35,949 nucleotides of DNA from a virus, in IMG/VR virus record IMGVR_UViG_3300035704_000016, positions 1 to 35,949 of that record; one strand, written 5' to 3'. Made by a program: the position numbers and the translations under genes. Each line of letters opens with the position of its first letter. The stretch's first letter is position 1. Below the pieces are notes generated by a model. The model was not told the origin of the DNA and did not search any database. It saw only the letters and a list, made by a program, of their open reading frames with translations. Positions 3,536 through 29,232 of this stretch are shown here, piece by piece.

Positions 3536-4179
3536 CAGCGGTTGTGGCCGGCGACGTGCGCCTTGTGGGGGCCCGCACCGGTGCGCTTGTTGGCAAGCAC
3601 GAAGAGTTCGCCCGCTCGAGCGTCGGCGCGCTCGAGGAAGTAGTTGCCGGACTGAGGATTCTCATCGACGTCCTCGTAGGCGATGCCCTTGGCGTAGTCG
3701 AGGATCGCCCGGCGGAACTCGACCGGGAAGGGGATGGTGTCGCCCGGCGCCATGTCGGCCGGCGTGATCGCCGAGAGGCCGGTGACCGAAAGGCCGTCCT
3801 GGGAGGGCGGCAGCCACAGCGAGAACTTCCTTTCGATGCCGTCTTCGCCGAAGCGCTCCGCGAAGATGCCGCCTTCGCTGGGCCGCGTCAAGCTCATCCG
3901 GCCAAGCCGCAGGTCCCACAGCGTCGGGAGATCGCTGCGTTCGTAGGGGTAGCCGGCGACGGCGACGCGGAGGAGTTTGACCACGTTGCCGGGGAGGTCG
4001 TACTCCTCCTGGGTGGCGACGGTGGGGCCAAGTTCGAGCTCGGCGCGGATCCACTCCGATCGCGACGCAAGCCGCTTCGCCCCCTCGTTGAGGAGCAAAG
4101 CGGCCTGCGGCCCGTTGAACTTAAACCCAGAACTCTCCGGGCCTTCGAGCTGTTCGATCGCGTCAGCGAGCGTTTCCAC
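3535..4179 (-). CDS. Head-tail adaptor protein (gp4/gp11-like)
   Basis: A 214-aa protein read from GTG 4179, with GAGGT four bases upstream; an in-frame TGA lies just before that. The N-terminal helix bundle (LLLNEGAKRLASRSEW) and the late helix pair (FRRAILDYAKGIAYED, then FLERADARAGEL) are the usual pattern of podoviral adaptor or tail-tubular-A proteins, in which an alpha-helical ring sits under the portal. A short central domain (LPGNVVKLLRVAV) would be the beta insertion of these proteins. The gene ends in a TGATG overlap with the nozzle gene. The family match is by pattern and order. Confidence 0.6.
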   Translation of the reverse strand: METLADAIEQLEGPESSGFKFNGPQAALLLNEGAKRLASRSEWIRAELELGPTVATQEEYDLPGNVVKLLRVAVAGYPYERSDLPTLWDLRLGRMSLTRPSEGGIFAERFGEDGIERKFSLWLPPSQDGLSVTGLSAITPADMAPGDTIPFPVEFRRAILDYAKGIAYEDVDENPQSGNYFLERADARAGELFVLANKRTGAGPHKAHVAGHNR

Positions 4180-9124: not shown

Positions 9125-10642
9125 CTAGTAGGTGAGCAAGTAGGGCGCCTTGGAGGCGACCGGTTCGGTGGGAGGCACGAAGGGAGTCACGGTTTTGAAT
9201 TCGGCCTGAGTTGCCTTTTTGGAGGGGTTGAGATTGAAGGCCCCCATGCAGGTTCCGGTCGCCGATTCGAAGAGGATCGAGACCCAGAGGATCTGCGGTT
9301 CGGTGAGAGTCAAGGCGGCTTCGAAGGCGACCTTTTGGATGGCTTCAGCGGTTCCCTGAGCCGCCCCCGCGGAGACCGCTACCCGTTCGCCAGCCGCGTT
9401 ATAGACGGCGACGATCACTTTGCCGTTGGAGACGGTCCCCACTTGGTAGGTGATGCCGGTGAGTTTGCAGGGGTTGAGGATCTTGACCGGGAGCCAGTAC
9501 TCGACCAGCGCCGTGGGGGCGAAGGAGCCCGAGCCGCTTCCCCAACCGTCGACCGAGAACCTCGAGCCGAGCCCCAGGTTGCCGATCCTCGAGGCCGTGA
9601 CACCTTCCGGCGGGATGCTGAGGGTGTTGCCCGCCTTCGCCAGACCCGTGCCAGCCGTGATCTCGCCAGCACCGGAGAACTGCGTGAATTTGACGGCCGT
9701 CGTGCCGACTGTGAAGCCCGGGGCCTTGGAAGCGAAGGTCCAGCCCGAGCCAGCATTGGTGGTGCCGCTCTCGACGAAGACGAAGGCGCCCTCGAACTCG
9801 GTCGCCTGGTCCATCTCGACCGATCGCGTGAGGATGAAGGGCAGCGCGACGCCGCCGGTCTGCGTGACCACGTAGAGCCCGTTGGCGGCTTCTTCGACCT
9901 GATTCTTGACGAGGATGTGCTGCCCGACTTCCACTCCGTTTTCGGTGTCGAGTTTGAGCGCGCCGTTGGCGGTCCCCGTGATCGTCGCGCCTTTGCCTTC
10001 TGTGCCGTTCACGTAGACACTGAGCGGCAGCGCTTCGGTCGTTGCGAGGGCGGCCGAGGGCTTAGGAGAGAGCCCCTGGATCGCGGCGTTGACGGCGTTG
10101 AGGACCGCTTCGGATGTCGGAGCGTGAGTGTTGTCGGCCGAGAGCGTTGTCAGGAGTGTGCGGATGCTCGGCGTCCCTACCGCGCCGTCGATGTAGGCAC
10201 CGGCGAAGTCGGCGGGGGTGATGAGAGCATTCGCGAGATTGGCGACGAGTTCCGATTCTTCTCCGGCGCCCTTTCCCCGCCACAGCGCGACGTTTTTCCC
10301 AGCCGTCTGCTGGATGTAGAAAGCCCCCAGAGCGAATTCGCCGGGCGCCCCTTCACCAGTCGTCGCCTGTAGGCCTTTGGCGGTCGCTTTTGGACTTGCC
10401 GTCCTGAATGCCACGTAGCGCCATTTTCCGCCTACTTCGGCAACGGCCTCGTATCGAGTTTCTGAGGCGAGACCTTCGAGAGCCAGATTGCCGCTCGCAT
10501 CCACGACGGCTTCTGCGGTAACGGCACCCAGGGGAGCACCTTCGGGGGGCTGGCTCAGCGGCAACGGCCAGTTGGTGCGCAGGTAGGCTTTGACCGTGGT
10601 GCCCACCGGGAAGACCTGCTGGTTGTTGAGTATAAATTTCAC
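9125..10642 (-). CDS. Tail fibre protein with shared anchor module
   Basis: 505 aa in three parts. Residues 1-85 are the anchor module (VFPVGTTVKAY, EVGGKWRYVAF). Residues about 185-325 form the widespread phage-fibre repeat domain: ATTEALPLSVYVNGTEG, GATITGTANGAL, QHILVKNQ, NGLYVVTQ, FVFVESGTTN, GWTF. It ends in the typical AGEITAGTGLAKAGNTLSI-like linker. Residues 365-505 form a C-terminal beta-sandwich likely to bind carbohydrate. The start is GTG 10642 with AGGAG five bases upstream. The protein probably trimerises and recognises a cell-surface sugar. Its TAG lies two bases before the next ATG. Confidence 0.8.
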   Translation of the reverse strand: MKFILNNQQVFPVGTTVKAYLRTNWPLPLSQPPEGAPLGAVTAEAVVDASGNLALEGLASETRYEAVAEVGGKWRYVAFRTASPKATAKGLQATTGEGAPGEFALGAFYIQQTAGKNVALWRGKGAGEESELVANLANALITPADFAGAYIDGAVGTPSIRTLLTTLSADNTHAPTSEAVLNAVNAAIQGLSPKPSAALATTEALPLSVYVNGTEGKGATITGTANGALKLDTENGVEVGQHILVKNQVEEAANGLYVVTQTGGVALPFILTRSVEMDQATEFEGAFVFVESGTTNAGSGWTFASKAPGFTVGTTAVKFTQFSGAGEITAGTGLAKAGNTLSIPPEGVTASRIGNLGLGSRFSVDGWGSGSGSFAPTALVEYWLPVKILNPCKLTGITYQVGTVSNGKVIVAVYNAAGERVAVSAGAAQGTAEAIQKVAFEAALTLTEPQILWVSILFESATGTCMGAFNLNPSKKATQAEFKTVTPFVPPTEPVASKAPYLLTY

Positions 10643-10650
10643 GACTTCTC

Positions 10651-12750
10651 CTAAGTTTCAATGTTACCTGTCACAACGTTTTCTGCGCCTACGGTGACAA
10701 CCTGCCCGGTAACGTTGTTGTTGGCTGTGTTTGCGGTGATGATGTTTTTATTTGAAGCTTCTATTGCTCGAACACCATACGCTTGAGTTCGTTCCCCACC
10801 GGCGCGAGTATCCGAGAATTCACACCCAACGATCCTTACGTAAGTTGCACTCTTGAGTTGACACCCATAACCAGTCGTACTCTTACCGTTGTCAAGACTT
10901 ATGCAACCAGTCATTGACGACCGAAAGGCAAAGGCGACCCCCGCTTCAGGGCTCTGCCAATTAAACCCGTGCCGTCCGTTTTCAAAGGCAAAGCAATTGC
11001 TTAGAGCTAGCCGGGGGCATTCAAGCAGCCATCCATCCGTTATGTTTTTCACAGCAGTAACGTTACTGAAGGAAACCGCCTTCGTCTTGACCGTGGCAGA
11101 AACGGCCGTCACAGTAATTCCAAAGGTGTTGTTTTCACTGAAACCGTCGGCAACCGCGACTTGCTCGTTGTTTGTAGAACCAGCCTGCCGAATAACAAGC
11201 CCCTGCGATCCGGCGTTATTACGAGCCGTCCAATTTGTGATTGAACACTGAAAAGCGAAGGCGAAACGGATAGAAGGCGCGGCGGGAGTGTCACGGGCCG
11301 TGGCCTGATCGACATGTACATGGCTTGCATGAATCCGGTGAGCCTGCGCTTTATTCGGGGACGCTTCTCCACTATTGACATTTGATAGTTGACCAACACA
11401 AAACCCGCCGAAGCGCGTATCGGATGAAATCAAGCCGCGCACGTCGACCTCCCGAGCCCCAGCACGAATCACCACCCCGTACCCGGCGTCACCCCATAGT
11501 TCAGTTTCTTCACCTTCGGTCAAGAATTTGGACTGCCACCCCGCGCCCTTCACAATGACGTTTGAGATAGCCCCATGAGTGGTAGGCAGCGGTTCGGCTC
11601 CAGTCCGCACGCCATTTTCGATCGCGGCCTGGTCCCCCGACACCTCAATTGCACTAAGGGGGATATTACGACAGACAATCGAGTCAATAACAAAACCGTC
11701 GACACCATAGAGTTCAATTCCGCAGCCACGACGTGCATCGGTCGCCGCAGACACCGATTGACCGTCAAGGATGAGATTGCAGATTCCGATATTTACATCG
11801 CCTTCACCCGCTTTAACCGTCGCGCGAAAGTTGCGGATTAGAGTGAACGATTGATTCGCTGCCGTTAGTACGGTGCCTGTGCCCGTAAGCGTTACGTTCG
11901 AGAAAACCACGAGTGATTTAGTCAAAACATAAGTTTTGGATCCGAAAATCACCGTGCCGCCCCCAGCAGTATTAGCGGCATTAATCGCATCCTGGGGAGT
12001 TTTGAAACCATCTACTAGGAAAAAGGGAGATTCACCCTTGTCGCCGGCGCGACTAAAGTCGACGTTGAGCAGGTCTTCGGCCGCGAACGTCCCAGTCTTG
12101 ACGAGGCATTCAACCGGGTAGCGCACCGCCGTCCCTACGACGGTGCCGGCGCCGGTGATGCGAAAGATCGCGACGACCGCGGGGTTGCCGACCTTGCGCA
12201 GAGAGAGGAAGCCTTTAGTCGAGTTGGTCGAGTCGTCGAAAGAAAGCAGGAAGGCGACGTTGGGCGCTCCGTCGGCATCGGTGTTGTTGATCGTGATGGT
12301 CGTCGCTTCTTCGATCAACGCCGGTTTTTTGTTGAGCTTGAGGTGCTGAGCGCCGGAGACCGTTTCTTCGGTGTTGATTTCGTAGAGGTAATGCAGGCCG
12401 GATGCGCGACCTTCGGGCCCGGTCGCCCCGGTGTCACCTTTTTCACCTTTTTCGCCCATGGGGCCGGCGCCGCCCTCTTTACCGGGAGGCCCGATGTTGG
12501 GGTTTGGTTTCGGCGTCGCATAGCGCGAGACGATCCAGGCTTCACCCTGCTGAGCGGCGAGCACATAGGTGCTGCCGTCCTGGGCGAGTTCACCGAGGTT
12601 GAGTGAGCCGTCTTCGGCGACGACCGCTTCGCCGATGCGATCGCCGACCGGTGTCGGGTTACCTGAGTCGAAGAGGGCATCGCGGTAGATGCCGACCACA
12701 GTGCCGATCGGGAAGGTCTCCATTACATTCGGAAGGATCACGTCGCTCAT
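10651..12750 (-). CDS. Tailspike: anchor module, collagen-like stalk, beta-helix
   Basis: 699 aa. Residues 1-80 are the anchor module (TFPIGTVVGIY). Residues 88-118 are Gly-x-y repeats (GPPGKEGG, GEKGEKGDTGATGPEGR), a collagen-like trimeric stalk. Residues 120-225 form a linker domain. From about 240 there is a right-handed parallel beta-helix of the pectate-lyase type: FKTPQDAINAANTAGGG, YVLTKSLVVFSNVTL, then asparagine-rich coils to the end. Such proteins are often capsule or exopolysaccharide depolymerases, but no active site is identifiable by eye. DNA for the beta-helix part is much less GC-rich than the first third, suggesting acquisition by exchange. The start overlaps the portal stop as ATGA. 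Confidence 0.85.
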   Translation of the reverse strand: MSDVILPNVMETFPIGTVVGIYRDALFDSGNPTPVGDRIGEAVVAEDGSLNLGELAQDGSTYVLAAQQGEAWIVSRYATPKPNPNIGPPGKEGGAGPMGEKGEKGDTGATGPEGRASGLHYLYEINTEETVSGAQHLKLNKKPALIEEATTITINNTDADGAPNVAFLLSFDDSTNSTKGFLSLRKVGNPAVVAIFRITGAGTVVGTAVRYPVECLVKTGTFAAEDLLNVDFSRAGDKGESPFFLVDGFKTPQDAINAANTAGGGTVIFGSKTYVLTKSLVVFSNVTLTGTGTVLTAANQSFTLIRNFRATVKAGEGDVNIGICNLILDGQSVSAATDARRGCGIELYGVDGFVIDSIVCRNIPLSAIEVSGDQAAIENGVRTGAEPLPTTHGAISNVIVKGAGWQSKFLTEGEETELWGDAGYGVVIRAGAREVDVRGLISSDTRFGGFCVGQLSNVNSGEASPNKAQAHRIHASHVHVDQATARDTPAAPSIRFAFAFQCSITNWTARNNAGSQGLVIRQAGSTNNEQVAVADGFSENNTFGITVTAVSATVKTKAVSFSNVTAVKNITDGWLLECPRLALSNCFAFENGRHGFNWQSPEAGVAFAFRSSMTGCISLDNGKSTTGYGCQLKSATYVRIVGCEFSDTRAGGERTQAYGVRAIEASNKNIITANTANNNVTGQVVTVGAENVVTGNIET

Positions 12751-25675: not shown

Positions 25676-25913
25676 CGCGACGCCGCCGAGCATCCTCGCG
25701 TGCCTTCTGGGCGGCCGTACACGTTGCCCAGTGCGGCTTATAGCGCAATTCCGTCCCAGCCTCAGCACGGCGCGCTCGGGGTGGATCGGTGCTGCCGTTG
25801 AAGTCGAGGGTCCACTCACCGTCGTCGACCGGCGAGTGGTCCATCGGCGTCATCCTCCCGCTCGCTGTCTTCGCCCAGATGATCCCCTCGCCGCAGTATT
25901 TGCAGTTAGCCAT
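25668..25913 (-). CDS. Zinc-knuckle protein next to helicase loader (81 aa)
   Basis: ATG 25913 (MANCKYCGEGIIWAKTASG) lies behind GAGGAGAGCA; the longer frame to 25943 lacks support. C4-x-x-C7 at the start and H-W-A-T-C near residue 65 form a C2HC knuckle. The middle is a small beta region (GEWTLDFNGS), and the tail is Arg-rich. Proteins of this type commonly sit beside replication genes in actinophages. Single-stranded nucleic-acid binding is plausible but not shown. Confidence 0.75.
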   Translation of the reverse strand: MANCKYCGEGIIWAKTASGRMTPMDHSPVDDGEWTLDFNGSTDPPRARRAEAGTELRYKPHWATCTAAQKAREDARRRRGE

Positions 25914-26742
25914 TGCTCTCCTCGGATTGGTTGGACTGCTCAAGTGAAAGGCGGTTGTCGCGGCCGGGGAGCTCGAAGACGTCGAGACCGGCCACGCGCG
26001 ACATCACGGCGTCGCCGAACTTGTCGCCGATCTGGGTGGGCGGCAGGTTGGTCGTGATCAGCAGCGCGGCGCCGGCCTGCAGACGCGTGTCGATCGCGGC
26101 GAAGACCTGGTTGATCGCCCACTCGCTCGGATTGATCTTGTCGAGGTCGTCGAGGATCAGCGCGCCCTTGCCGGCGAGTACCGAGATCGCCTCCTTGCGG
26201 GCTTTGTCGTTGAAGGCGGCGCCGAGCTGGGCGATTAGCACCGGCATCGACACCCAGCGCACGTCCCACTGTTGGAGCCTCGACCAGGCCGCCGTGGCCG
26301 CCAGCCGGGTCTTCCCGGTACCGACGTCGCCCCACAGGCACATCCCGCCGGGACGCTCGATCTCCGCCCATTTGCGCACCTGGTCGACGACGTACTTGCG
26401 GCCTTCCTCGGGCAGCATTTCGTTGAAGTAGAAGCCGTGGAGCGCTTTCGGCAGGTTGGAGGCCGAGAGCCGTTCGCGCAGCGCGGCGGCGTGGTTCTCA
26501 CGGGCCTCACGTTCCTCTTCGCGGGCCTCGCATTCGTCGCACATCAGCCCGTTGACGATCCGCGGCGCCCTGCCGGCAGCGATCGCGCGGGCGATCCCGT
26601 TGGGCTTGAGATCGCTGCGCAGCTTGATCTCGACCTGGCACGACCGGCATTTGGTGTTGATCTGCCACACAGGGCCGTTCTCGCTCTGCACGGTCTCCAG
26701 GGGGACGAGGCGGTCGAGCTCTTCGAGCGTCGCGATTTTCAC
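25906..26742 (-). CDS. dnaC: DnaC-like replicative helicase loader (ATPase)
   Basis: 278 aa. An N-terminal zinc site (C32, C35, C68, C71) is followed by an AAA+ domain: Walker A GDVGTGKT (138-145), Walker B LILDDLDK (195-202), sensor LITTN (228-232) and an SRV arginine (about 249). The family loads a DnaB-type helicase at an origin recognised by an initiator. The gene just upstream is that initiator. GTG 26742 overlaps its stop as GTGA. No DnaB-type helicase is seen in the window, so the phage probably uses the host helicase. Confidence 0.9.
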   Translation of the reverse strand: MKIATLEELDRLVPLETVQSENGPVWQINTKCRSCQVEIKLRSDLKPNGIARAIAAGRAPRIVNGLMCDECEAREEEREARENHAAALRERLSASNLPKALHGFYFNEMLPEEGRKYVVDQVRKWAEIERPGGMCLWGDVGTGKTRLAATAAWSRLQQWDVRWVSMPVLIAQLGAAFNDKARKEAISVLAGKGALILDDLDKINPSEWAINQVFAAIDTRLQAGAALLITTNLPPTQIGDKFGDAVMSRVAGLDVFELPGRDNRLSLEQSNQSEESNG

Positions 26743-27536
26743 GGCGCCAGTTCGGGATTGCGCTTCGTGGTGTCGTAGGCCGCCCGAGGATTGGCTTCTC
26801 CGGGCAACGGAACGCGTTCCGAGGATGGCGCTTTGAGCTTCTCGAGGCAGAACTCCACGCGCTCCCGGCTACGGAAGATCAGTTCGAAATCAGTTTTGCC
26901 CTTCTCGACGTGCCAGCGGCTGCCAGCGAGACCTCGGATCGCATCGCGGAGTTCGTCGATGGAACTATCAGCCAAGCGGGCCCGAAGATGGCTGCGGCGC
27001 TTCGCGGTGAGCTGTGTCGAGCCGTTGCGTCCGGTCAAGGATCGCCAGAGATCGAAGAGTTCTTGGATGTGGCCGGTGTCATCTTTGTTGACTGACTCAC
27101 CGCCGGAGGCACTTTCTTTCTCTTTGTTGTTTTCTTTCCTTATTAGTGGCTGCCTACTTTTTTGACACCCAGGCGTCGAGGGCTGCCTACTTTCTGGGCT
27201 GCCTACTTTCTGGGCTGCGTCTACTTTCTTAACAGGGATGCCATAAAGCCAGCGGTTGGATTTGGCGTGTCGGCGGTCGACCATTCCCTTCTTGAGGAGG
27301 CCAGTGAGGGCGCCCGATACGGCCTGTCGAGAAAGCCCGGTTAGCCCGGCCAGTTGGCCGGTGCTGAGAAGACGCATTTCAACCCCCCAGCCGAACGTCT
27401 GCCGAGCGATCATCGAAAGCACCTGCCACTCGGAGCCAGAGCACTCGAGCAGGTACTCGTCGAAGAGCGCGTTGGGAATCTGCGTGTAGCCGGGAGGCGG
27501 AACCGACCGCTTCGCCGTTGGCTCCGCCTCCCTCAC
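26739..27536 (-). CDS. Winged-helix replication initiator, lambda O-like
   Basis: 265 aa. Residues 15-100 form the N-terminal winged helix of phage replication proteins: GYTQIPNALFDEYLLECSG, SEWQVLSMIARQTFGWG, LAGLTGLSRQAVSGALTGLL, then a wing ending WLYGIPVKK. Residues 103-150 are a linker encoded by repeated, AT-rich DNA. The C-terminus (155-265) is helical and would bind the helicase loader. The start is GTG 27536 with GGAGG ten bases upstream. The order initiator then DnaC matches lambda O and P. The gene's own DNA looks like the origin. Confidence 0.82.
   Translation of the reverse strand: MREAEPTAKRSVPPPGYTQIPNALFDEYLLECSGSEWQVLSMIARQTFGWGVEMRLLSTGQLAGLTGLSRQAVSGALTGLLKKGMVDRRHAKSNRWLYGIPVKKVDAAQKVGSPESRQPSTPGCQKSRQPLIRKENNKEKESASGGESVNKDDTGHIQELFDLWRSLTGRNGSTQLTAKRRSHLRARLADSSIDELRDAIRGLAGSRWHVEKGKTDFELIFRSRERVEFCLEKLKAPSSERVPLPGEANPRAAYDTTKRNPELAP
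27109..27147. other. AT-rich, one-strand-purine tract beside the iterons
   Basis: On the initiator coding strand this stretch is almost entirely A and G (about 39 bases, with only a few T or C) and is far richer in A/T than its surroundings. It encodes a Lys/Glu/Asn-rich linker. In lambda, an equivalent tract next to the four O-binding iterons is the unwinding region of the origin. Confidence 0.5.
27148..27233. repeat. Four iterons inside the initiator gene, candidate origin
   Basis: Plus-strand copies: GGCTGCCTACTTTTTTG (27148-27164), then GGCTGCCTACTTTCTG twice in exact tandem (27181-27196, 27197-27212), then GGCTGCGTCTACTTTCTT starting at 27213. The common core is GGCTGC-n-CTACTTT. The first copy lies 33 bases before the second, about two repeat lengths. 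They encode the initiator linker, residues about 103-131. Four repeats plus an adjacent AT-rich tract in an initiator gene is the lambda origin layout. Confidence 0.65.
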
Positions 27537-28102: not shown

Positions 28103-28251
28103 CAGGCAGCCTCCTTTTCATTTGTGGTACAGGTCCCCTCCGGAGGCGCCGGGGTGATCTCAGCTAGCGCACAGCGGTCGAAGTCACCGCGCTCATGGCG
28201 GCGTCCGCAGTCCGGGCAGAGAGGCGGGAGGTCGGTCTGTCCGGCGCTCAA
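28102..28251 (-). CDS. Small zinc-knuckle protein (49 aa), start uncertain
   Basis: The frame ends in TGATG with the next gene. The only plausible start is TTG 28251 (MSAGQTDLPPLCPDCGRRHE); upstream of it the frame crosses terminator-like hairpins. Motif: C12-P-D-C15, H19, C27. No ribosome site is obvious. The coupling and Cys pattern support a real gene. Confidence 0.55.
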   Translation of the reverse strand: MSAGQTDLPPLCPDCGRRHERGDFDRCALAEITPAPPEGTCTTNEKEAA

Positions 28252-28303
28252 TGTGTAATGGAGGGGAGATTCAAGGTAGGGGAAGCAATAGCCCCCCGGT
28301 CGG

Positions 28304-28333
28304 ACGGCTCCTTTCGAGGGGCCGTTTGTCTTT
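28304..28333 (+). terminator. Plus-strand intrinsic terminator 1
   Basis: ACGGCTCC, loop TTTCGA, GGGGCCGT, followed by TTTGTCTTT. An 8-bp stem with one G-T pair. The T-run is on the plus strand only, although the surrounding genes are on the minus strand. It may stop antisense transcripts or end a short plus-strand RNA. Confidence 0.6.
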
Positions 28334-28432: not shown

Positions 28433-28909
28433 TTAGAGGATGCCGGCGAAGAAATCGGGGTTGGGCCCGAGACCATCGCCCCCGCAGTACGGGCACAGTT
28501 CCTGGTCGAACTCAAGGTCGTGGTCAACGCTCTGCCAACCGCTCCCACCGCATCCGAGGCAACGGGCTCGACCGACTATCACCCACGTCAGCCCCGGCCA
28601 CGACCTCGCGATTTGACGATCGCGCTGCGATGGGTCGGGGTGGCCCTTCGGATGGCTGTGATAGATCCCCACGAGGTCGTGGCCGTCGGTCTCGATCTGC
28701 TTGAGGATCGCGATCTGGTCACGGGGTGCGATCAGGAAGCTGTCCGTGGGGCTCTCAGCGGCGTTGACAGCCCCGTAGAGGTGGAGTCGGCCCTCCGGGT
28801 AGCGATCGGTCGCCGGACCCCGTGAGATCAGCCCACAGCACTCCTCGGGGTCATCGGCGAGCGCGCGGCGGCGCAGCTCTTCGCGTAGCCAATCGTTGAG
28901 CTCGATCAC
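28433..28909 (-). CDS. JAMM/MPN-type zinc metallopeptidase with DnaJ-like knuckles
   Basis: 158 aa. The JAMM signature is complete: Glu in PEECCGLI (22/23), then H84-S-H86 in GIYHSHP, and S94-x-x-D97, with exactly ten residues between the second His and the Asp. Near the C-terminus are C-L-G-C-G-G-S-G (117-124) and C-P-Y-C-G-G-D-G (139-146), two CxxCxGxG zinc knuckles as in DnaJ. JAMM enzymes cleave isopeptide or peptide bonds, including ubiquitin-like conjugates. In phages they also occur in tail assembly, but this gene is in the replication operon. The start is GTG 28909 (GTGA overlap). The longer frame is rejected. Confidence 0.82.
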   Translation of the reverse strand: MIELNDWLREELRRRALADDPEECCGLISRGPATDRYPEGRLHLYGAVNAAESPTDSFLIAPRDQIAILKQIETDGHDLVGIYHSHPKGHPDPSQRDRQIARSWPGLTWVIVGRARCLGCGGSGWQSVDHDLEFDQELCPYCGGDGLGPNPDFFAGIL

Positions 28910-29232
28910 GTTGTCGTCTTCCTGGCCGGCTGCCACTTGCCGCCAACGAAGACGGCGCACCCGTGGCGCTCGGCAACCTTCAGACCGCGGCCGATCGTGG
29001 GGTGGGCGCGCAAGATGCAATGCACGCAGATCGGGTGGCAGTCGTCAATGGTCGGCTCAGTCGGCAGCGCCGGGGCGTCGCTGTAGTAGATCGTCAGGCC
29101 GTTGTCGGCCACGGAAGGCCCGTAGTCGGTCTCGATCGGCTTGCCATCGTTGACCGGCGGCCGGGTCTCGATCTGCACCACAGGGAGCCGACCGCCCACC
29201 GCGAGGCCCATCGTGCCGTGGCTGAGCTTCAT
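28906..29232 (-). CDS. Hypothetical Cys/His protein (108 aa)
   Basis: ATG 29232 overlaps the previous stop (ATGA), and its own stop overlaps the JAMM start (GTGA). The N-terminal half is beta-rich (MGLAVGGRLPVVQIETRPPV). The centre holds D-C-H-P-I-C-V-H-C and the C-terminus C-A-V-F-V-G-G-K-W, which may bind zinc. No family is recognised. Tight coupling to the JAMM gene suggests a common process. Confidence 0.65.
   Translation of the reverse strand: MKLSHGTMGLAVGGRLPVVQIETRPPVNDGKPIETDYGPSVADNGLTIYYSDAPALPTEPTIDDCHPICVHCILRAHPTIGRGLKVAERHGCAVFVGGKWQPARKTTT

Follow-up and report, generated by a model that had tools for sequence, protein, structure and literature searches.

The segment at 27227-27112 of a 35,949-bp phage sequence (the window, meaning the whole stretch of DNA that was analyzed) is very probably the replication origin of the phage, embedded in the initiator gene as in lambda and also in P22, L, and 80alpha. 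A preliminary description had proposed a self-contained origin of the lambda type, and as judged from sequence this is the best-supported reading. It draws on a winged-helix initiator, iterons that repeat at the level of DNA, an adjacent tract of least stability, an overlapping loader gene, the layout found in relatives, and covariation between the recognition helix of the initiator and the iteron sequence. The embedded origin appears to add a new example to a known arrangement, and the helix-iteron covariation is the part that specialists may find new.

In the mechanism that we propose, which follows that of lambda (PMC7466680), the winged helix would bind the four AAAGTAGGCA-type iterons through a recognition helix starting at S69-R70-Q71. 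The bound array would strain the adjacent purine-rich AT tract until the tract opens, and the C-terminal domain, together with the coexpressed DnaC-like loader, would deliver the replicative helicase of the host to the strand thus exposed. Helicase placement is the role known for the DnaC-like loader family. We infer iteron binding by the initiator, with indirect support from the helix-iteron covariation, and we also infer melting, loading, and use as an origin.

Features of the proposed origin and the genes that contain and follow it
Feature	Position	Strand	Remarks
Initiator gene, O-like	26739..27536	-	265 aa, GTG start; PF04492 and phrog_18020 matches
Recognition-helix codons	27291..27329	-	Residues 70-82 by DSSP on the AlphaFold2 model; begins in TGLSRQA
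Iteron 1	27213..27227	-	AAAGTAGacGCAGCC, 2-nt insertion
Iteron 2	27197..27209	-	AAAGTAGGCAGCC
Iteron 3	27181..27193	-	AAAGTAGGCAGCC
Iteron 4	27148..27160	-	AAAGTAGGCAGCC, adjoins the tract
Purine-rich AT tract, presumed unwinding element	27112..27144	-	Local stability minimum
DnaC/IstB-like AAA+ helicase loader gene	25906..26742	-	4-nt overlap with the initiator gene

The initiator, the loader, and their genomic setting

The initiator comprises a winged helix (approximately residues 17-100), a linker, and a C-terminal domain. Residues 17-91 match PF04492 (Phage_rep_O) with an E value of 1.4e-11 and 45.2 bits, against a curated cut-off of 28.7, and the best PHROG is phrog_18020, "replication initiation O-like" (E=2.6e-23). 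An AlphaFold2 model built from five sequences has a mean pLDDT of 52.6; the winged helix is modeled at a pLDDT of ~70-90, residues 111-158 form a low-confidence stretch in a linker predicted to be disordered, and the C-terminal part is poorly modeled. With a domain score above the curated cut-off and a winged helix in the model, the protein is a lambda O-like member of PF04492. A search of solved structures by sequence found no initiator. No lambda O structure is among the fold matches listed, which carries no weight as proof.

In the PDB, the folds that match the winged helix belong to MarR-like regulators and to other proteins with winged helices. The resemblance to MarR-type regulators would suit a reading in which the array consists of sites for the same protein that mainly regulate transcription of the initiator-loader pair, or copy number, while the main origin lies elsewhere; iterons of other replicons can double as control sites. 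We consider this unlikely, because the array is located mid-gene, ~310 nt past the initiator start codon, rather than at a promoter. A scan of the region with the sigma-70 pattern, the only pattern used, found nothing promoter-like, and the adjacent unstable tract and the embedded origins of relatives better fit an origin.

As described previously, a gene for a DnaC-like loader follows the initiator gene. By family match, its product is an AAA+ protein of the DnaC/IstB type (IstB_IS21, E=3.9e-12; phrog_50, DnaC-like helicase loader, E=2.5e-30); in position and probable role, it is a likely analogue of lambda P. Upstream of the initiator operon, a terminator-like hairpin of 12 pairs is present on the plus strand at 28301-28328; the likely genes around it are on the minus strand, opposite to the hairpin. 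Two genes upstream of the initiator region, 28433-29020 encodes a JAB-domain (PF14464) protein with zinc-ribbon-like cysteines.

The window is the entire IMG/VR record, which is classed as linear and could therefore be a fragment. The phage genome has a GC content of 65%, and scans with Rfam and for tRNAs were both empty. The actinobacterial setting suggested earlier found no support, as terminase and capsid have weak matches, which fall in phages of Proteobacteria and cyanobacteria. A further reading would give the array no part in initiation, making it a site for partition or incompatibility, as in plasmids, or for packaging or recombination. Plasmid iterons can indeed serve incompatibility, but the window encodes an integrase-family protein, the terminase gene lies ~10 kb from the array, and a location within an O-like gene, with a loader gene as neighbor, is characteristic of replication. 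Such a role is thus quite improbable.

The iteron array and the unstable tract

The four repeat copies that had been described, including an exact 16-bp tandem (iterons 2 and 3), are present at 27227-27148 on the minus (coding) strand as three exact copies of AAAGTAGGCAGCC and one copy with a 2-nt insertion. The iteron is a 13- to 16-nt direct repeat without a strong dyad, and the spacing is irregular (18, 16, and 33 nt). The array falls, as stated in the preliminary description, in the linker-coding part of the gene: the iterons encode residues 104-130, mostly inside the low-confidence stretch. A linker that is predicted to be disordered and thus free to vary might have produced such repeats as a by-product of repetitive or low-complexity protein sequence. 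However, the iterons occur in frames 0, 0, 1, and 1 and encode the differing peptides KVDAA, KVGSP, ESRQP, and KSRQP; being in two reading frames, they are repeats of DNA and not of peptide.

We compared the gene with 10,000 protein-preserving versions of itself, 5,000 with synonymous codons permuted and 5,000 with codons resampled. The longest 3-fold exact repeat is 13 nt in the observed gene and at most 11 nt in the recodings, and the longest 2-fold repeat is 23 nt compared to a maximum of 16 nt. None of the 10,000 recodings reached the observed repeat lengths, which makes an origin of the array in the linker protein very improbable. The iteron 12-mers are also unique in the whole window in having three copies within 150 bp. 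The iteron array is therefore a feature of the DNA, beyond what the synonymous null models produce. One near-match, the minus-strand sequence AAAGGAGGCTGCC at 28105-28117, appears to be a ribosome-binding site that serves the preceding gene and was set aside as a chance occurrence.

Directly after iteron 4, the coding strand reads AATAAGGAAAGAAAACAACAAAGAGAAAGAAAG from 27144 to 27112. The preliminary description had called this tract AT-rich and composed of A and G only; it is AT-rich and unstable, but its composition is 30 purines out of 33 positions, with two C and one T. The stability profile that had been suggested as a check was calculated with nearest-neighbor energies. Only 0.02% of the window is less stable than the tract when scored in 40-bp windows and 0.01% when scored in 60-bp windows, and 27110-27149 is the least stable 40 bp of the region. 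Hardly any DNA in the window is less stable than this tract. The window is strongly AT-rich elsewhere, at 10.4-12.5 kb; this region (10400-12500) contains a tail-fibre-like gene, has a GC content of ~53% compared to 65% for the genome, and was possibly acquired. Cumulative GC skew had been named as a result that could speak against the origin by placing it elsewhere. As a control, the cumulative skew of lambda has neither a maximum nor a minimum at its known origin, so GC skew is uninformative on the position of an origin.

Relatives and the covariation of recognition helix and iteron

Searches by protein pattern, for the initiator in both viral and genome contigs and for the loader in viral contigs, found no close relatives, and the exact double iteron had no match in viral contigs. 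A first alignment was too divergent for use as a search query. Distant relatives keep the layout of winged helix, iterons, and A-rich tract with a wholly changed iteron sequence. Examples are Acinetobacter phage Ab9 (iterons CGCCAAACT), an Acinetobacter phage-plasmid (AATGG/CTACCCC repeats), and locus L083 (iterons AGTGGAAAAACTCCACT), in which the purine tract is very like that of the window. The layout with other iterons also occurs in Bacillota genomes and phages and in many prophages. A set of 72 loci, which includes some that are not initiators, contains 46 with significant direct repeats immediately past the winged helix. For 42 of the 46, the 40-nt stretch richest in A begins downstream of the first repeat and no farther than 120 nt from the last. 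Direct repeats serve as iterons in several O-like relatives as well.

Scans for the iteron itself were less selective. A loose double AAAGTAGGCA scan returned two loci, L007 and L008, neither with an O-like gene at the repeats, and L007 has two copies only. A triple AAGTAGRC scan returned 72 stretches, many of which look like coding repeats (EVDEA, for example) and few of which are within initiators; that scan alone is therefore not evidence. At 3840-4140, L008 has AAAGTAGGCACCA repeats and their inverse outside long ORFs, beside a large primase/helicase-like gene. The phage looks unrelated, yet the repeat core equals the iteron core of the window.

In the window, the helix GLSRQA is paired with the iteron core TAGGCA. 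The AAAGTAGGCA core is also present in winged-helix initiators with the helix start TGLSRQG (L031 and L033, the latter with a genome copy, L091). The iteron had been described as unrelated to that of lambda, which is correct, but its core is not unique, as it recurs in Firmicutes phage initiators. Because L031 and L033 were obtained through the iteron scan, further initiators were fetched by protein similarity alone; the comparison, clustered at 90% identity, covers 75 winged-helix clusters. At least two TAGRCA copies were present in all seven GLSRQ[GA] clusters not chosen through the iteron, compared to 1 of 65 other clusters. The Fisher p value is 5e-9 with 90% clustering and 6e-4 with 70% clustering, where SRQ and SRT members fall together in one cluster, and both values overstate independence, since the queries carried SRQ helices and the clusters are mutually related.

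Closely related sequences vary at the helix as well. In what amounts to a natural near-experiment, L164 (GLSRQG) has AGTAGGCAAC and L235 (GLSRTG), 83% identical to it, has AGTGCGCAAA; GLSRKG relatives have iterons CTACCCAA. Across the closely related Lactobacillus-type set (L164, L234, L235, and L236-L241), one helix position and the iterons change together, with the pairs SRQ/TAGGCAA, SRT/TGCGCAA, and SRK/TACCCAA in the linkers after the winged helix. In a Lactobacillus phage group, TAGGCA copies are retained while copy number changes.

On balance, these pairings lead us to favor a readable code in O-like/DnaD-like phage initiators, in which a few residues where the recognition helix begins (SRQ, SRT, or SRK) would specify the central bases of the iteron (TAGGCA, TGCGCA, or TACCCA, respectively). 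Two O-like phages with GLSRQN are exceptions, as their site is of the TTAGAGACA type; SRQ by itself therefore does not determine the site. These phages, the irregular spacing, and the lack of a clear dyad count against an embedded origin in the window. Literature searches showed no earlier report of helix-iteron covariation among the titles and abstracts listed, which does not prove its absence from the literature.

The analysis places a probable replication origin and its module in a GC-rich phage without close relatives in the scanned collections. The covariation is the more useful by-product. If the code is true, the origin of an unknown phage would be predictable from its initiator protein, and vice versa, and the code would extend to the GC-rich phage studied here, in which the domain is only ~31% identical to the reference group. 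Origins in uncultured phages could be located in this way, as each initiator gene would encode the reading helix and also contain its target sites, and the many natural helix-site pairs could be used to learn how winged helices recognize DNA.

Comparison with known systems

In lambda and Stx phages, the origin is embedded in the O gene, and Stx variants have six iterons (PMC7466680). Lambda shares with the window an O-family winged-helix initiator, four mid-gene iterons, and an adjacent A/G-biased, AT-rich tract, and lambda O and P overlap by 4 nt, as do the initiator and loader genes here. The lambda tract ranks at 0.7% on the stability scale within lambda, compared to 0.02% for the tract in the window. 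Further differences are the iteron sequence, the spacing of 16-33 nt, the DnaC/IstB-like family match of the loader, and the GC content of 65%. The lambda iteron is a 19-bp imperfect inverted repeat with a clear dyad, whereas the repeat in the window, at 13-16 nt and without a strong dyad, is not of this ~19-bp inverted form. Since several O-like relatives use direct repeats, the inverted repeat defines the iteron of lambda itself and not embedded origins as a kind.

Gene 18 of the Salmonella phages P22 and L encodes distant O homologues, and in each phage the gene contains iterons of its own (PMC8022706). The partner gene in these phages encodes a DnaB-type helicase, not a loader as in the window (PMC8022706), and the phage L iterons, TGTCCAACGGA, are unlike those described here. 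ORF20 of Staphylococcus phage 80alpha is not complementable in trans, which suggests that the gene contains the origin (PMC5499656); ORF20 and ORF21 form an initiator and loader module, as in the window. The DnaD/O-like initiators of Carboxydothermus and Lacticaseibacillus phages (L091, L093, L095, and L164) combine TGLSRQ with TAGRCA, as in the window. Their winged helices are ~31% identical to that of the window, and copy number and spacing differ; in L091, AAAGTAGGCA is identical to the window over 10 nt, and the iterons are spaced at 12 nt.
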